A DNA stretch of 64,000 bases from Chelativorans salis. GTDB lineage: Bacteria > Pseudomonadota > Alphaproteobacteria > Rhizobiales > Rhizobiaceae. This document shows positions 41,221 through 47,758 of this stretch, in pieces; position 1 is the first letter of the stretch, and the number at the start of each line of letters is the position of its first letter. A model generated the notes under the pieces. The model searched no databases, had not been told where the DNA came from, and was given only the letters and a program-made list of their open reading frames with translations. The translations under genes were made by a program, and so were the position numbers. The DNA lies in contig NZ_JAOCZP010000002.1 in assembly GCF_025336525.1 (NCBI RefSeq), positions 558,001 to 622,000 of the forward strand, given 5' to 3'.

Positions 41221-41245
41221 GGAACCGCTGACGATGCATGCCGTT
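41221..41245 (+). promoter_or_regulatory. EcfG-type general-stress promoter
   Basis: GGAAC (41221-41225), a 16-base spacer and CGTT (41242-41245) match the alphaproteobacterial EcfG consensus exactly. The expected transcript start is about 41252, giving a ~24-base leader to the gene at 41276. Confidence 0.75.
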
Positions 41246-41275: not shown

Positions 41276-41512
41276 ATGGCGCGCTGCGAGGTTTGCGGAA
41301 ACGAGTATGACAAGGCCTTCAAGGTCGAGATGGGCGGCGAGACGCATATCTTCGACAGTTTCGAGTGCGCCATTCACGCACTGGCGCCGTCATGCTCCCA
41401 CTGCGGCTGCCGGATCGTCGGCCATGGCGTGGAGAAGAACGATGTGTTCTTCTGCTGCGCCCACTGCGCCGCCCAGGAGGGAGTGGAGGAACTGAAGGAC
41501 CGGGCTTCCTAG
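41276..41512 (+). CDS. Small cysteine-rich zinc-ribbon-like protein
   Basis: 78 residues with an AAAGGAGG ribosome-binding site. The Cys pattern CEVCGNEYDKAF, FDSFECAIHAL, CSHCGC and FCCAHCA indicates two metal-binding knuckles resembling TRASH or metallothionein-like domains, so zinc binding is likely. Similar small proteins are common in Rhizobiales without known function. The perfect EcfG promoter upstream places it in the general stress regulon. Its stop overlaps the convergent gene by four bases. Confidence 0.82.
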   Translation: MARCEVCGNEYDKAFKVEMGGETHIFDSFECAIHALAPSCSHCGCRIVGHGVEKNDVFFCCAHCAAQEGVEELKDRAS

Positions 41513-41853
41513 TTTTCCCCGCCGCCAGGTGTATGGACAATCGGGTCGCGGCGGGTCGGCCCCTTCAAAACCTCGCGCGCACCTTCCCGCGGGAAGGTGC
41601 TGCTGTCGTCCTCGACCACACGGTAAAGCTTTTCGTCGCGAAATGCGCTGGCGAAACTCGTCGAGACGCCGTCGCCAGGCTTGGCGGGAGTGTCGAGGAA
41701 ATCGACTTCCGCCTCGGAGGCGACGATGCGTGCGTCGGCGGGCGAGCGCGCCCGCACGACCACTTCCCCCGCCGGCTCCGCTAGGTCCCAGTTGGGATCG
41801 GTCTCGGCCGCATCCGGCACCAGTCGGTATATCTTAAGTGCCTCTTTATTCAT
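41509..41853 (-). CDS. Small hypothetical protein, probable stress regulon member
   Basis: 114 residues from ATG 41853 (MNKEALKIYRLVPDAAETDP), with GGAGG seven bases upstream; the ATG at 41859 is too close to that site. Soluble and acidic, with VVVRARSPADARIVASEAEV and a C-terminal GPTRRDPIVHTPGG. No domain was recognised, and there is no signal or membrane segment. An EcfG-like promoter precedes it. It is convergent with, and overlaps, the zinc-ribbon gene. Confidence 0.75.
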   Translation of the reverse strand: MNKEALKIYRLVPDAAETDPNWDLAEPAGEVVVRARSPADARIVASEAEVDFLDTPAKPGDGVSTSFASAFRDEKLYRVVEDDSSTFPREGAREVLKGPTRRDPIVHTPGGGEN

Positions 41854-41884
41854 CCGCATGCCTCCGGTACTGCCTGCCCCATGG

Positions 41885-41910
41885 AACACACAGCAGGGCA
41901 GGGCGGTTCC
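41885..41910 (-). promoter_or_regulatory. EcfG-like promoter (one mismatch)
   Basis: On the minus strand GGAAC (41910-41906), a 17-base spacer and TGTT (41888-41885). One base differs from the CGTT consensus. Positioned ~32 bases upstream of ATG 41853. Confidence 0.5.
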
Positions 41911-41984: not shown

Positions 41985-42009
41985 GGAACCATCGACTGCT
42001 GTGGGCGTT
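41985..42009 (+). promoter_or_regulatory. EcfG-type promoter of the small RNA
   Basis: GGAAC (41985-41989), a 16-base spacer and CGTT (42006-42009), an exact consensus match. It is directed at the hairpin pair ending at 42092 and not at any start codon nearby. Confidence 0.78.
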
Positions 42010-42015
42010 TTGATC

Positions 42016-42092
42016 TCGACGGCACGCACTCCCCCCGCCCCCCAACCCCACTACTGCGTGCCGGGTGCCGGCGCATACGCCGGCATTTTTTT
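42016..42092 (+). ncRNA. Candidate general-stress small RNA, GsrN-like
   Basis: About 77 nt between an exact EcfG promoter and a perfect terminator. Hairpin 1 is an 8-bp stem GGCACGCA / TGCGTGCC (42021-42028, 42055-42062) closing a 26-nt loop of almost only C (two runs of six). Hairpin 2 is the terminator. There is no start codon with a ribosome-binding site inside. The sigma-dependent promoter, exposed C-rich loop and 3' terminator are the features described for GsrN of Caulobacter, whose C-rich loop pairs with Shine-Dalgarno regions such as katG. Homology is not shown, only the same architecture. The 5' end is estimated from the promoter. Confidence 0.72.
42066..42092 (+). terminator. Terminator of the candidate small RNA
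   Basis: A perfect 8-bp stem TGCCGGCG / CGCCGGCA with loop CATA is followed by seven T residues. No plus-strand protein gene ends upstream within 550 bases. Confidence 0.93.
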
Positions 42093-42107
42093 GCCCGGAT
42101 GTCGGGC

Positions 42108-42132
42108 GGAACTTTTGTCGCAGGCCACTGTT
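42108..42132 (+). promoter_or_regulatory. EcfG-like promoter of the PRC-barrel gene (one mismatch)
   Basis: GGAAC (42108-42112), a 16-base spacer and TGTT (42129-42132). About 58 bases upstream of ATG 42191. Confidence 0.5.
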
Positions 42133-42190: not shown

Positions 42191-43108
42191 ATGCGACGCG
42201 ACCTAATATCCGCAATGGTTCTGGCATCGGCAACTGCCTTTGCCTTTCAGGCTCAGGCCCAGGACCAGAACCAAAACCAAGCCCAGAACCAGCAAGCATC
42301 GCAATGCATCGAGGAATTGCGCCAACTAGCGCAGAGGATGCGCGATGACGGTTATTGGCTAGCGGGGTATCGCGGCTACGGCACGACCGGAATGGCGCCA
42401 AGACCGGGCGGCACTACACCTGCCGCGCCCGGCGCCGCTCCGGCCACGCCTGCAACGCCACCGACCTCGCCGGGCACAGAGCCGGCCGCACCGGAGGCCG
42501 GTCAGGCGGCGCGCGAGGTAGGCCCTTGGGGCGACGTTCGGTGGGTAGGCCGTCCTCAATACCAAATTGGCGTGCTTTACGAGGCCGCTTACGTGCTGGC
42601 CATGAATGGGGACCAGCAAACCTGTGAGACGATGGTCGAGGCTACGCGGGACCGCTACGAGAGCTATGTTGCCGAGCTCGAGGAGTTGGGAGTCAATCCC
42701 GAAGAGGTGGCGAACTGGCGTGCGGCGGAGATCGCCGCGTCCGAGCCGGTGACTGAGATGCAGGGCCGCTTCAGGATCGAAGACATCATCGGCGCAGACG
42801 TGCGTAATGCCCAGGACGAAGGATTGGGCAGCATCGATGATGTTGTGCTCAACTCAAGCACCGGCCAGGTGCAGTACGTGGTGGTCGACTATGGCGGCTT
42901 CTTCGGCATTGGGACTGACGAGGCGGTCGTGCCGTGGGAACGCCTCCGTGCCATACCGAGCAGGAACGCGTTCGTGCTGCCGGTGGACCGCGCAACGCTC
43001 GAACAGGCCCCGCAACTTCCTGACAATGGCCTGCTCGACCCCCAACAGACCGGCTCCATCAACACGGATGAAGTCGACGCCTATTGGGAAGACGCTACTC
43101 AGCAGTGA
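42191..43108 (+). CDS. Exported PRC-barrel domain protein
   Basis: 305 residues from ATG 42191 (MRRDLISAMVLASATAFAFQ); a GTG three codons earlier is possible, but GGAG fits the ATG. A signal peptide is cleaved near AQA-QD. A Gln/Asn stretch (QDQNQNQAQNQQ) and a Pro/Ala-rich linker (residues ~65-105) follow. A helical region with QTCETMVEATRDRYESYVAE precedes a PRC-barrel domain at ~195-275 (DIIGADVRNAQDEGLGSIDD, then VVVDYGGFFGIGTDEAVVPW). Periplasmic PRC-barrel proteins are typical stress-regulon members in this order; the exact role is unknown. Confidence 0.85.
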   Translation: MRRDLISAMVLASATAFAFQAQAQDQNQNQAQNQQASQCIEELRQLAQRMRDDGYWLAGYRGYGTTGMAPRPGGTTPAAPGAAPATPATPPTSPGTEPAAPEAGQAAREVGPWGDVRWVGRPQYQIGVLYEAAYVLAMNGDQQTCETMVEATRDRYESYVAELEELGVNPEEVANWRAAEIAASEPVTEMQGRFRIEDIIGADVRNAQDEGLGSIDDVVLNSSTGQVQYVVVDYGGFFGIGTDEAVVPWERLRAIPSRNAFVLPVDRATLEQAPQLPDNGLLDPQQTGSINTDEVDAYWEDATQQ

Positions 43109-43144: not shown

Positions 43145-46100
43145 TTAATAGTCCCTTTCGTAAAAGATGCCGAGACTTGACTCGCCGCCGGTGCCGATGG
43201 CGCCGCGTGCCTTCAGGTCCTCGGTGATATCGAGGTTGATGGTGGCGCGCGTGGAACCGCCGGAGCCGGCCTCCACACCGAGATAGACATTCTCCTGGAT
43301 ATAGCGGCCGGCGCGAACGGCCACACCGCCTGTCTCGTCAGTGATGATGTCGAGCTCGTCGAGGCCGGTTGCGCCGCGTAGCGAACCCAGAAGCGAGGTT
43401 TCGGTGCCGCCGGCAAGCTCGGCCGCCGCGGCGGCTAGTTGGGCAAGCTGCAGGGGCGACAGCTCGTTCAAGCCGCGGTTGAAGATGAGGCGTGCTAGCA
43501 CCTCGTCCTCCGGCAGCTCCGGCTGCGAGGAAAAGTCGACCGACAGATCGGAGACGCGGCCGGTCACCGTGATGAAAACCGTGATGTCGCGGCGCTCCGA
43601 GCGGGCGACGAAGTCGAGATAGGGATCGAGGTCGCCTACTAGGCTCACCGTGCCCTCGTCGAAGGTGATGCGCTGGGTGAGGATGGACAACCGTCCGCGG
43701 ATGAGCTGGAAGGCGCCGACGGGCTGAACGGAAGTGACCGGCCCCGTCAGTTGCACCGAACCTCCAAGCTCGGCGTCGAGCCCGCGTCCGCGCACGAAAA
43801 TGCGCGCTGGCGCGTCGACGGTCACGTCCAGGCGCAGCACGCTCGGCCGACCGCTGGGCATCGGCGTGCCGTCGTCGGCCCGCGCACGGCGCAGTGTCTG
43901 GCGCACCGCCGGCGGCGGATCGACATGTTGAACGTTAATTTGGGCGGGGCCGCCGCCGCCGAAATGCTCCGGAACGGTAATCTCCACACGGCTTAAGGTG
44001 AGGTTGCCGGAAAGCAGGGGATCGCGGGTGAGCGGCCCGCGGAGCGTCAGCGCTCCACTCATGGTGGCAGTCACCAACTCGCCGTCCGTATAACGTGCCT
44101 CATTGAGGCGGATCGCCAAGTCGGCAGGAAATCCTGCCGCGGCACTGGTCGACACCGTGCCCGAGAGCGAGAGCGTGCCGCCGCCCGCAAACGCCGCCGA
44201 GGCCGAGCGGATGGTAACGGTGTCGCCGCTAATGCCGGCGTCGACGCGAATGGAGGTTAACCGTAGATTTGTCAGCGGGTCGAAAGCGGTGGCGTCCGCG
44301 ATCGACACCGTTCCCTGGATCGCCGGATTGGCGAGGCTGCCACCGATATGTATTTCGACAATGGCGGTTCCCCTAAACTGCGCGCCACGACCGGTCAGGA
44401 GGCGATCTACAAGCGTCAGCGGGACGTTTCCGCGGACGTCTACGGCCAGGCCGCTTCCTGTGAGCGGGACGCGGCCGCTGGCTGAAACGGAAAGGCCGGC
44501 AGGGCCGGTGGCGGTCATGTCGCTGAGCGTCACCACGCCTTGGGCGAAGCGGCCGGAGGCGGTGATATCGAGGGGAGCGGCGCCGAAAGCGGCGAGAGCC
44601 CGCGCGGTGAAGGCACCGGTGTGCAGGTTGAACTCTGCCCGTGGGTCGGCGAGGCTGCCCGTCACGCGGGCCGAGCCGGTGAGCGTGCCGCCGAGATCTT
44701 GGTTGGGTATCCGCGCGTTGAGAAGGGAGAGGGGGAAGGCCTGAAGCTCGACATCGAGCGCCAGCGCGCCCTCGCCGAGCGGCACGTCGCCGGCAAGCGT
44801 TGCCCTCAAGCCTCCGGGACTTGCCACTTGAGCGTCAACGGTCAGGATTTCGTTGCGGGTCGTGCCGGTGGCGTCGACGCTGAGCGAGGCGACGCCGGCC
44901 TGGCGAAGGGCCGCGGCGACGATGTCGCGCCCGGTGAGCGTGAAGGATGCCTCATGCGCTTCGCGCGTGCCGGAGATGGTGGCTTCTCCGTTCAGCGTTC
45001 CGCCGAGCGCTAGGTCGGGGCGGACGGTATTGGCGATGGAAAGCGGCACGGCGTCGAGCGACAACGCCACGTTGAGCGTCCGGCCGATCTCACCTTCGGC
45101 CGTGACCCGTCCACCGGCGACATCCACTTCCACGGGTTCGAAGGAGACAGTGTCGCCACGGACGGTGAGGGATGCCGGCCGCAGAAGGCGCGCCGACACA
45201 TCGTCTTGGGTGAGGGAAGCCTCTTGGAGCGAGATCGTGTAGCCGCCATCCTGCGGCGCAAGTCCGCCGCGGGCGGCGATGTCCGTGCCGTTGGCGAGTG
45301 CTGCTTCCGCAGAGAAGGTGGTTGCACCGCCGCTGGTTTCGGCGGTGGCGTTGAGCCGAGCCACGTCGATGCCCGCAACGACAAGATCCGCGGCCGCGAC
45401 TGTTCCTTCGACCGCCGGTACGCCGAAGAGGTCGGCGACGGTCGCCTCGAGGTCGGCGCTTTGCAGCGAGAACTGCTCGGTCACGACATCGCGCAGCGTG
45501 GCGTTGAGCGCGAGATGCTGCTCGCCATCCCGTGGCTCCAGCGACAGCGTGGCCTCGGCAGCGCCGGTCGCCTCCGTTAGAAGCAGGGCCGCCGCGGTCG
45601 AGATGTCCGCGGCGTGAAGGTTGAGTTCGCCAGCGAAAAGCCCGTCGTTGCCCCGGGCAAGGTCGCCCGTCAGCCGCGCGCCGCCGGCGGTGAAGTCGAT
45701 GCCGCTCAGGCGGCGCTCTTCGTCCGCCAGTGCCACGTCCGTTTGCAGGCTTGCGCGTACGCCGTCGAGGAAGGCGTCGCCCGTGACGCGCCCGGAAAGC
45801 GCCTGATCCTCAAGTGTTCCTTCAAAGTCGATCACCGCGTCCGTAAGTTGCTTGTCAAGAAGCCGGCCCTCTGGAACCTGGGCGCGGAGGGAGAGGTCGA
45901 GTTCGCCGGCGCTGCCCGTGGCACGTCCGTTGGCCGTCAAGCGTCCTTCGGCGCGGTTGTTGATAACCGCAAGATCGGCGATGGCGGCGTCGAAGCGGAA
46001 ATCAGCCTCTTCGGTGGCGAAGGTGCCGTCCGCCGTCAGCTCGATCTGGTCGTTGACGACGTGGAAGTTGTCCGCCGTAAAGCCCTCCGTGCTGCGCCCC

Positions 46101-47758
46101 AGCCTGCCGGTGATGCGGGTCAAGCCGCCAAGCAGGGCATCGGCGGCCGGGATGCCGATGCGAAGCTCGTTCGCCCGGCCGTCGAGCGTGAGGTCGAATG
46201 CGCCGCTGATCGGGCGCACTTCGCCGTTTGCGGCAAGATCGAGACTTCCCCCGAGTTCCCGCCCGGCAAGGCCGGAGAAGGGGGCGAGATTTGCCGCCTC
46301 CAGGCCAATATCGCCACGGAAGGCGAGGTCGGAGATTTCACCGGAAAGCGTGGCCGTGAAGCTGTGCCCGGTAAGCCGGGCGGCAGCAAGGGAAAGCGGT
46401 TCGCCGGCGCGCCAGGCGCCGTTGGCGCTAAGCTGGATGGTCTGGCCGAGGGCTTCGGCGATGTCGGCGCGGTCGGCAACGATATCCTCCAGGACGCCTT
46501 GCAGGTTGAAGGTGATGCGGCGCTCGGCGGGCTGGGAAAGGTTGGTGGCCTCGCCGCCGATGGTGAGATTGGTGTTCCCGGCAGAAAAGCCACCGCTCTG
46601 CAGGCCATCGATGTCGAGTACCGCCTGCCAGTCCTCGTCTGTTTCGCCGTAGCTGGCGGTCAGCCTTGCCGAGCGCACCGAGGACTCGCCACCGGCAACC
46701 GGCAGCAGAATCCGCTCGCCCTGCGGATCGGCGATGCTGGCATCGAGCGAAAGCATGGTCAGGAAGCCGTCGCTGGCCGTCTCGGCGGAAGCTTCAATCT
46801 GCAGTGCGGCACTCGATAGGCTGAGGGTTTCGAGCGTCAGGCCACCGCCGCGTCTGGCGACGCCCGTGGCTTGCAGCGTGGTCTCGTCGCCGAAGAAGGC
46901 GCGGAAGCGGGCAGGTATCAGCCGCACGATGGGGCCGCTGACGTCGACCGTGAAGCCGATCCCTTCCTGCCGTCCGCGGAACCGGGCGGCACCGGAAAGG
47001 GCGGGCTGGCCGGCGGCGGCAAGCGAAAGCGACAGGTCGAGATTCTCTACCGGACCGGAGCCGGCCAGGGTGAGGGAGAGCGGCGGGCGGCCTTCGATGT
47101 TGAGCAGGTTTGCCACTACGCCATTCTGTGGTTCCACCAGCGCCAGGTCGAGATCGAGCGCGCCCGTGTCGTCGGCGTAGGCCGCCGTCAGCGAAAGATG
47201 TCCACCGGGGCCATCGAGGCGCTCGATCTCGAGCGCCGTGTCGAGCGACCCGCCTTCCAGCCGCAGGCGGCCTTCGAGGGATATGACGGATTCGAGGCCG
47301 AAGACATCGCTGCTGAAGGAGATATGCGGAACTTCGAGCTGCTCAAGATTGATGGCAATCGGCAGTTCCGGGATGGCGAAGGAGCGTGCCTCGGGCGACG
47401 GCAAGCCTTCGCTGGGCAGTGGGCGGCGGATGACCTCTATGGAGTCGGCGGCAAGGCGCGCAACCTCCAGCCGCTGGCGCAGGATAAGGGCGGTGCGGCT
47501 CCATTCGATGGAGGCGTTTTCTATACGCAGCCAGACACCCTCACGGTCGGCGACGGTAATTTCGGCAATGGAGGCTTGAGAGGAAAGAACGCCCTGGATG
47601 CCGCGGATGCGGATGCGGCGGTTGGGCGTGGAAAGCCGGTTCTCGATGAAGGAGAGGAAAAGTGAGCGCTCCTCTGCCGGGCTTTGCGCAGCATCGTCCT
47701 GCGCAGTTGCCGGAAAGGCTGCGAGAAATAGGAAAAGGGCGAGCAGAAGCCGGGTCAA
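43145..47758 (-). CDS. tamB: Translocation and assembly module protein TamB
   Basis: 1537 residues. A single N-terminal signal-anchor (LLLALFLFLAAFPATAQDD) is followed by more than 1200 residues of regular beta-rich repeats, forming a periplasm-spanning groove. The C-terminal DUF490/TamB domain (~residues 1150-1537) includes RGRLSILTQRITFDEGTVSL and GLDELDIITDETGGVAVRAG and ends in FYERDY. TamB links the inner membrane to TamA and is implicated in barrel-protein insertion and phospholipid transport. It overlaps tamA by four bases. Confidence 0.93.
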   Translation of the reverse strand: MTRLLLALFLFLAAFPATAQDDAAQSPAEERSLFLSFIENRLSTPNRRIRIRGIQGVLSSQASIAEITVADREGVWLRIENASIEWSRTALILRQRLEVARLAADSIEVIRRPLPSEGLPSPEARSFAIPELPIAINLEQLEVPHISFSSDVFGLESVISLEGRLRLEGGSLDTALEIERLDGPGGHLSLTAAYADDTGALDLDLALVEPQNGVVANLLNIEGRPPLSLTLAGSGPVENLDLSLSLAAAGQPALSGAARFRGRQEGIGFTVDVSGPIVRLIPARFRAFFGDETTLQATGVARRGGGLTLETLSLSSAALQIEASAETASDGFLTMLSLDASIADPQGERILLPVAGGESSVRSARLTASYGETDEDWQAVLDIDGLQSGGFSAGNTNLTIGGEATNLSQPAERRITFNLQGVLEDIVADRADIAEALGQTIQLSANGAWRAGEPLSLAAARLTGHSFTATLSGEISDLAFRGDIGLEAANLAPFSGLAGRELGGSLDLAANGEVRPISGAFDLTLDGRANELRIGIPAADALLGGLTRITGRLGRSTEGFTADNFHVVNDQIELTADGTFATEEADFRFDAAIADLAVINNRAEGRLTANGRATGSAGELDLSLRAQVPEGRLLDKQLTDAVIDFEGTLEDQALSGRVTGDAFLDGVRASLQTDVALADEERRLSGIDFTAGGARLTGDLARGNDGLFAGELNLHAADISTAAALLLTEATGAAEATLSLEPRDGEQHLALNATLRDVVTEQFSLQSADLEATVADLFGVPAVEGTVAAADLVVAGIDVARLNATAETSGGATTFSAEAALANGTDIAARGGLAPQDGGYTISLQEASLTQDDVSARLLRPASLTVRGDTVSFEPVEVDVAGGRVTAEGEIGRTLNVALSLDAVPLSIANTVRPDLALGGTLNGEATISGTREAHEASFTLTGRDIVAAALRQAGVASLSVDATGTTRNEILTVDAQVASPGGLRATLAGDVPLGEGALALDVELQAFPLSLLNARIPNQDLGGTLTGSARVTGSLADPRAEFNLHTGAFTARALAAFGAAPLDITASGRFAQGVVTLSDMTATGPAGLSVSASGRVPLTGSGLAVDVRGNVPLTLVDRLLTGRGAQFRGTAIVEIHIGGSLANPAIQGTVSIADATAFDPLTNLRLTSIRVDAGISGDTVTIRSASAAFAGGGTLSLSGTVSTSAAAGFPADLAIRLNEARYTDGELVTATMSGALTLRGPLTRDPLLSGNLTLSRVEITVPEHFGGGGPAQINVQHVDPPPAVRQTLRRARADDGTPMPSGRPSVLRLDVTVDAPARIFVRGRGLDAELGGSVQLTGPVTSVQPVGAFQLIRGRLSILTQRITFDEGTVSLVGDLDPYLDFVARSERRDITVFITVTGRVSDLSVDFSSQPELPEDEVLARLIFNRGLNELSPLQLAQLAAAAAELAGGTETSLLGSLRGATGLDELDIITDETGGVAVRAGRYIQENVYLGVEAGSGGSTRATINLDITEDLKARGAIGTGGESSLGIFYERDY

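Follow-up and report, generated by a model that had tools for sequence, protein, structure and literature searches.

A putative EcfG-dependent small RNA with a cytosine-rich loop in Chelativorans salis and its relatives among the Rhizobiaceae

In Alphaproteobacteria, the sigma factor and the partner switch of the general stress response are well studied; its RNA arm has, in the literature considered here, been elucidated in Caulobacter and touched upon in Rhizobium. The window considered here, a stretch of 64,000 nucleotides of the Chelativorans salis genome (5.66 Mb, 19 contigs), contains an intergenic region where a promoter-like string of the EcfG type is followed by a hairpin with a cytosine-rich loop and by a terminator. 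Is this a stress-regulated small RNA (sRNA) gene, and how does it relate to GsrN of Caulobacter? We observe directly the parts of the gene, their conservation and covariation, their recurrence at other loci, and the genes for PhyR, NepR, and an ECF sigma factor that the host carries. According to our analysis, the locus is likely a sigma-EcfG-dependent gene for a trans-acting sRNA, which would act in a GsrN-like manner, through its C-rich loop, on G-rich mRNA sites.

Parts of the predicted sRNA gene

A script check of the coordinates places the string GGAAC-N16-CGTT exactly at 41985 to 42009 on the plus strand, with the −35 element GGAAC, of sigma-EcfG type, at 41985 to 41989 and the −10 element CGTT at 42006 to 42009. 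The predicted sRNA covers 42016 to 42092 on the same strand, with its start set 6 to 9 nt past the −10 element and its end at the T run; we assigned this extent because the spacing from GGAAC to the hairpin is nearly constant (31 to 37 nt in 53 relatives) and a terminator is present. The perfect 8-bp stem described in the sequence-only reading (42021 to 42028 with 42055 to 42062) is there and grows to 9 bp through the pair C42020-G42063, giving a hairpin at 42020 to 42063 (42020 to 42028 with 42055 to 42063) which is supported by folding and by compensatory changes. It closes a loop of 26 nt (42029 to 42054) that holds two C6 runs, as claimed, and is the presumed target-pairing region; the loops of relatives are likewise C-rich. 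The intrinsic terminator at 42066 to 42092, identified by script and by folding, was also described correctly, with an 8-bp stem (42066 to 42073 with 42078 to 42085), a four-base loop, and seven T residues at 42086 to 42092, the last of which ends the RNA. A consensus-based terminator scan did not list it and reported instead an overlapping stem at 42089 to 42111; the hairpin and the T7 run are plain in the sequence.

Folding of 42016 to 42092 gives −33.5 kcal/mol with a z-score of −4.16, and none of 200 shuffles was equally stable. The window holds three copies of the exact promoter string where 0.50 are expected, a count reached by 2 of 100 shuffles, and with that many occurrences it is weak evidence when taken alone. 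The pattern C6-N-C6 is found once where 0.02 is expected, one occurrence being reached by 2 of 100 shuffles. That no reading frame fits the RNA was borne out among frames of at least 40 amino acids: none begins inside it on the plus strand, where the two that overlap it start upstream at 41881 and 41979, and two further frames cross it on the minus strand. No Rfam 15 family other than tRNAs scored above its gathering threshold in the window or in 20 loci. The best subthreshold match by E-value was anti-hemB, with 27.9 bits against the 49.5 needed, and a permissive search of the stretch (E ≤ 10) returned four families, 6C not being among them.

Conservation and covariation in the genus

The covariance model R2, which combines promoter, hairpin, and terminator, identified the RNA in all 16 genomes of the genus, once per genome save for two extra matches below 29 bits, and BLASTn detected the core in 14 of the 15 other genus genomes. 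In genomes of named species the loop pattern was found on 11 contigs, of which seven are labelled Chelativorans and the others come, one each, from Nitratireductor aestuarii, a Phyllobacteriaceae metagenome-assembled genome, Mesorhizobium sp. J18, and Aquibium sp. A9E412. Promoter and hairpin are conserved amid unconserved flanks: averaged over all pairs of 15 genus loci, identity is 0.94 for GGAAC and the next three bases, 0.84 for the hairpin, and 0.75 for the −10 element, against 0.39 for the spacer, 0.32 between the −10 element and the hairpin, 0.29 in the 100 bases upstream, and 0.28 downstream. Loop length differs by single bases.

The description of the promoter as an exact EcfG promoter holds in this genome and has to be relaxed in its relatives. 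All 15 genus loci have GGAAC, as do 51 of the 53 relatives, GCAAC taking its place in the other two, whereas the −10 element reads CATT at six genus loci, CGTT at only four, GATT at three, and GGTT at two. Since the −10 element varies in this way, only GGAAC and TT can be regarded as strict. A relaxed −10 consensus of a similar kind applies to RpoE2 of Sinorhizobium. At L128, L135, L138, and L246 we also noted GCAAC instead of GGAAC at −35, which a second EcfG paralogue may read.

The stem and the C-rich loop, whose lack of conservation among close relatives would have spoken against an sRNA gene, are kept in 16 of 16 genus genomes, and the compensatory changes that were sought in the stem are indeed found, including G-C to A-U and C-G to U-A swaps. 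In an alignment of 20 sequences, both sides changed in 5 of 15 pairs and 98.3% of the cells pair, while slid versions reach at most 40%; the covariation score was reached by none of 500 shuffles, although further pair types, 8 in all, were no more numerous than in the shuffles (mean 8.4, with 500 of 500 reaching 8). In an alignment of 53 sequences, which was fitted to the covariance model so that its covariation counts call for caution, both sides changed in 12 of 15 pairs, 96.1% of the cells pair against at most 48.9% in slid versions, and all five measures exceed those of all 500 shuffles. The six modelled pairs of the terminator are formed in 100% of the cells in both alignments. Presence in every genus genome together with compensatory changes thus supports the view of the sequence-only reading that this Rhizobiales genome carries an sRNA gene whose promoter is of the EcfG type and whose C-rich loop is conserved.

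Relatives across the family, order, and class

Beyond the genus we relied on covariance models because BLASTn matched the genus only, apart from a match in genome G026 that lies outside the RNA part; a MAFFT alignment of distant members was not used for model building since the three most distant hairpins were misaligned. The RNA-only model R1 gave matches in 15 of 297 family genomes; of those inspected, L037 is not a member and L038, where a C-loop hairpin and a terminator occur without GGAAC, is doubtful. R2 extended this to 65 of 394 family genomes and 30 of 109 genera, its matches under about 30 bits being partly due to chance. At E ≤ 0.01, R3, built from 53 members, matched 111 of 394 genomes, which belong to 45 of the 109 genera. 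Strong relatives, at 51 bits or more, number 66 genomes (46 in the training set, 20 outside it) in 22 genera, and the next score is 45.7. A first look could yield thousands of candidates in a genome, of which these searches scored 9 to 16; absences therefore count for little. Outside the family nothing exceeded 31 bits, either with R2 in 249 order-wide genomes, family members included, or with R3 in 289 class-wide genomes. What emerges is a compact RNA and a model that finds its relatives in dozens of genera.

The relatives fall into a group A, which adjoins tamB and comprises the genus and three further genera (g60, g65, and g74), and a group B, located elsewhere, with stems such as GACGGGC/GCCCGTC and with neighbours that recur within subsets. 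The loops of the 53 relatives contain 56 to 74% C (median, 67%). The C-rich loop is maintained while the stem sequence changes, and although loop length and detail differ between genera, the C runs stay. Genomes G109 and G125 have three R3 matches each, and in G109 two copies are nearly identical; therefore we regard these RNAs as a multi-locus class.

Several individual loci deserve mention. The two G109 copies, L244 and L245, are genes for C-loop RNAs of the EcfG type; they lie on different contigs and their upstream sequences are nearly identical too, which looks like a recent duplication. Separate loci with other stems form the sets L248/L251 and L249/L254, in each of which EcfG-type C-loop RNAs are alike between two genomes of the same genus. 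In another family of the order, a stretch moderately rich in C and a terminator follow an EcfG-like promoter at L115, a possible but doubtful member outside the family. L137, beside phyR, has promoter and terminator with a loop that is not C-rich. We rejected the weak model matches L037, L119, L136, and L139 and, outside the family, L108 to L114, L116 to L118, and L233 to L240, whose sequences lack the combination of a GGAAC promoter and a C loop.

Comparison with known sRNAs

The RNA had been called an analogue or homologue of GsrN. Analogy stands, as control signal and loop are of the same kind; homology to the Caulobacter RNA does not follow from our data, in which R3, run against 289 genomes of the class with 13 candidates scored per genome, matched nothing convincingly outside the family. 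With GsrN of Caulobacter crescentus the RNA shares a sigma-T/EcfG-type promoter, a 5′ hairpin, an exposed loop with six tandem C residues, and an intrinsic terminator (PMC5869019). Two features by which GsrN-like sRNAs are recognized are thus found, namely a promoter that is predicted from its sequence to be read by EcfG/SigT and a C-rich loop that, in the modelled fold, would be exposed in a 5′ hairpin. In C. crescentus, gsrN is likewise distal to the phyR locus (PMC5869019). Unlike GsrN, however, the Chelativorans RNA has a single C-loop hairpin with two C6 runs in one 26-nt loop, and its predicted length is about 75 nt, compared with about 100 nt for GsrN, from which cleavage yields a stable 5′ isoform of 51 to 54 nt (PMC5869019); the Chelativorans RNA leaves little room for a processing site and a second exposed region such as GsrN has.

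The other close comparison is ReC64 of Rhizobium etli, an 88-nt RNA encoded downstream of phyR-tcrY, for which EcfG1 dependence was established by 5′ RACE and a reporter fusion (PMC3892343) and which was confirmed by Northern blot (PMC2881028). A further report, in which promoters for SigA and RpoH were predicted for it instead, describes its increase upon salt shock (PMC4167512). On the data of PMC3892343, R. etli was predicted to have a GsrN homologue, with a loop that the text calls cytosine-rich and the figure legend G-rich (PMC5869019); we infer that this homologue is ReC64. ReC64 belongs to the same bacterial family and is EcfG dependent, and among the genomes studied here phyR-linked RNAs with C-rich loops occupy the matching position. 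It differs in being linked to phyR, whereas the Chelativorans RNA is distal, and the linked RNAs found here mostly have two C-loop hairpins; the comparison with ReC64 itself is by its description. Together, ReC64 and GsrN set a precedent, which we counted in favor of an EcfG-dependent sRNA (PMC3892343, PMC5869019). In Sinorhizobium meliloti, 23 sRNAs with RpoE2 promoters were predicted (PMC3616915), and distal members may already be present in such lists as unnamed transcripts.

We treat the RNA as a variant among EcfG-regulated C-loop sRNAs and do not file it as GsrN. A search by title and opening of abstract, with most subscription literature outside its scope, returned no published report of it. 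Other sRNAs with C-rich hairpin loops, the 6C RNA or B11 of Actinobacteria and sX13 of Xanthomonas, are considered to pair with G-rich sites of mRNAs. They belong to other phyla or classes and have other promoters than the Chelativorans RNA.

Neighbouring genes, targets, and mode of action

Upstream of the RNA, a divergent gene at 41509 to 41853 on the minus strand encodes a protein of 114 amino acids without a Pfam or NCBIfam match, a relative of which lies beside the RNA at 13 of 15 genus loci and at L027; on its strand, the script located GGAAC-N17-TGTT at 41910 to 41885. Downstream, a gene for a PRC-barrel protein (42191 to 43108, plus strand; PF05239, E 2.6e-12) is followed by tamB (43145 to 47758, minus strand; PF04357, E 6.4e-60), which is convergent with the sRNA gene. 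A scan that used the PRC-barrel neighbour to look for named relatives found none. Among 61 genomes examined for order-wide linkage to tamB, 26 gave a tamB match, and a scan of these 26 loci detected such an RNA only at that of C. salis itself. A second exact GGAAC-N16-CGTT, at 41221 to 41245 on the plus strand, precedes a gene (41276 to 41512, plus strand) for a cysteine-rich protein of 78 amino acids without a Pfam or NCBIfam match and is kept at L002. EcfG-like promoter strings are in fact clustered over about 900 bp, comprising 41221 to 41245 and 41985 to 42009 on the plus strand and the looser 41910 to 41885 (minus), 41883 to 41908 (plus), and 42108 to 42132 (plus).

The suggestion that the loop could bind many GGGAGG-type Shine-Dalgarno sequences does not hold in exact form. 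The loop contains ACUCCCCCCG, the perfect partner of which is CGGGGGGAGU, and since it is devoid of CCUCC the RNA is not a plain anti-Shine-Dalgarno RNA; its best pairing partners are CGGGGGGAGU and UGGGGUUGGGGGG. The 12-mer TGGGGTTGGGGG, complementary to the loop, occurs 17 times in the 16 genus genomes, 12 of them being the RNA gene itself, and the five outside occurrences, compared with 4 for the reversed control, have contexts that are all unlike, so that this search revealed no conserved target. katG, a known target of GsrN, is not a conserved target of the Chelativorans RNA: 10 of the 16 genus genomes gave no match to its family, and in the six that did the leaders pair no better than controls.

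In the mode of action that we propose, PhyR would free EcfG from NepR under stress, and EcfG would read GGAAC/CGTT to produce a transcript of about 75 nt ending at the terminator. The hairpin would keep the cytosine-rich loop open for pairing with G-rich stretches of mRNAs, presumably in their leaders for the most part, and such pairing may alter translation or stability of the mRNA, by analogy with GsrN. Hfq would probably assist.

Other readings of the same sequence fare less well. The hairpin might belong to the 5′ leader of the PRC-barrel gene, which starts about 100 bp past the terminator in this genome, or to a small coding gene. This can be considered largely refuted, as the PRC-barrel gene has its own promoter-like GGAAC-N16-TGTT at 42108 to 42132 (plus strand, by script; perhaps part of the same regulon) and adjoins the RNA at only 2 of 15 genus loci (L001 and L005), and a coding role is at odds both with the absence of plus-strand frames of at least 40 amino acids starting in the RNA and with a loop whose length shifts by single bases. 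Close convergence with tamB, at most 1.5 kb from the RNA at 15 of 15 genus loci and at those of g60, g65, and g74, would suit a cis-acting element, either antisense or a terminator structure at the 3′ end of tamB; yet no tamB lies within about 1.5 kb on either side of the group B loci that were searched (L034 to L036, L091, L093 to L107, L120 to L133, and L135), a terminator for tamB would need no promoter, and the T run faces in the direction of the sRNA, which makes such an element very unlikely. We also find it unlikely, though with better grounds than the cis-acting element, that the loop binds a protein instead of mRNAs and serves as a titrating decoy for an RNA-binding protein. The loop is very C-rich and conserved, and the search for targets revealed none that is conserved and has extended complementarity; against this, GsrN, the best studied of the analogues, is known to act on katG through pairing (PMC5869019), and a loop that varies between genera while its C runs stay is what pairing with G runs would produce, even if a loose protein site fits as well.

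The phyR locus and its two-hairpin RNAs

Outside Caulobacteraceae, proximity to ecfG-nepR-phyR has been used as a criterion for GsrN-like sRNAs. In C. salis, Pfam matches place the genes for PhyR, NepR, and the ECF sigma factor side by side on contig C17, away from the sRNA gene on contig C12, and within 7 kb around this stress locus we found no C-loop RNA despite EcfG-like promoter strings there. PhyR was detected in 91 of 111 family genomes. We compared the phyR surroundings of C. salis and of 40 genomes chosen by hand (n = 41), using one locus only where two phyR copies exist. An EcfG-like promoter followed by C-loop hairpins was present at 15 of the 41 loci, 10 of them recognized by the first scans and five by eye after a looser scan, with L185 and L187 being the least clear. 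Most of these linked RNAs show two C-loop hairpins, and R3, untrained on them, ranked several (L242 and L256 to L259), albeit as weaker matches.

The distal RNA (at least 51 bits) is found in 12 of the 41 genomes, none of which showed a linked RNA (Fisher p 0.0014 with 15 linked loci; 0.027 without the five tamB-linked genomes; 0.021 with the 10 linked loci of the first scans); these values ignore kinship and are hence too small, and they assume that all 41 genomes were among the 394 searched with R3. When the loose scan was applied to all 41 loci, the 12 distal genomes still showed no linked RNA; by eye, the strings there either stand ahead of genes or lack a terminator. However, G122, which is outside the 41, carries both forms, and G185 has a distal RNA and a two-hairpin RNA. 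Adding G122 yields p values of 0.007 to 0.12 depending on the choice of rows, with 0.03 when the two least clear linked loci are dropped and 0.12 when the five tamB-linked genomes are left out as well. Absences of linked RNAs are weak, since the scan requires CGTT or GGTT and so passed over G122, where the promoter of the linked RNA has GATT at its end. Mutual exclusion of distal and phyR-linked RNAs is thus suggestive and no more.

Such a pattern could mean that the Chelativorans RNA is a true orthologue of the phyR-linked GsrN-like RNA, relocated away from phyR in this lineage. The exclusion among the 41 genomes and the recovery of linked RNAs by models trained on distal ones argue for it, while the co-occurrence in G122 and G185, the weakened p values, and the two C-loop hairpins of the linked RNA against one here argue against it; we consider relocation doubtful. 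Somewhat better, though still tentative, is the idea that EcfG-driven C-loop RNAs form a multi-locus class in Rhizobiaceae, with at most three detected per genome, whose members were repeatedly duplicated, moved, or replaced, and that the Chelativorans RNA, the only member detected in its genus, took over the GsrN role from a phyR-linked two-hairpin RNA. Linked versus distal position and two hairpins versus one provide a natural comparison, by which the minimal form of a GsrN-like RNA and the targets that it keeps become testable questions. At L021 (2050 to 2170, minus strand), the PRC-barrel gene beside ecfG has a leader in which, by eye, an EcfG-like promoter is followed by a long hairpin formed by GGCCGCGCAGCC and GGCTGCGCGGCC.
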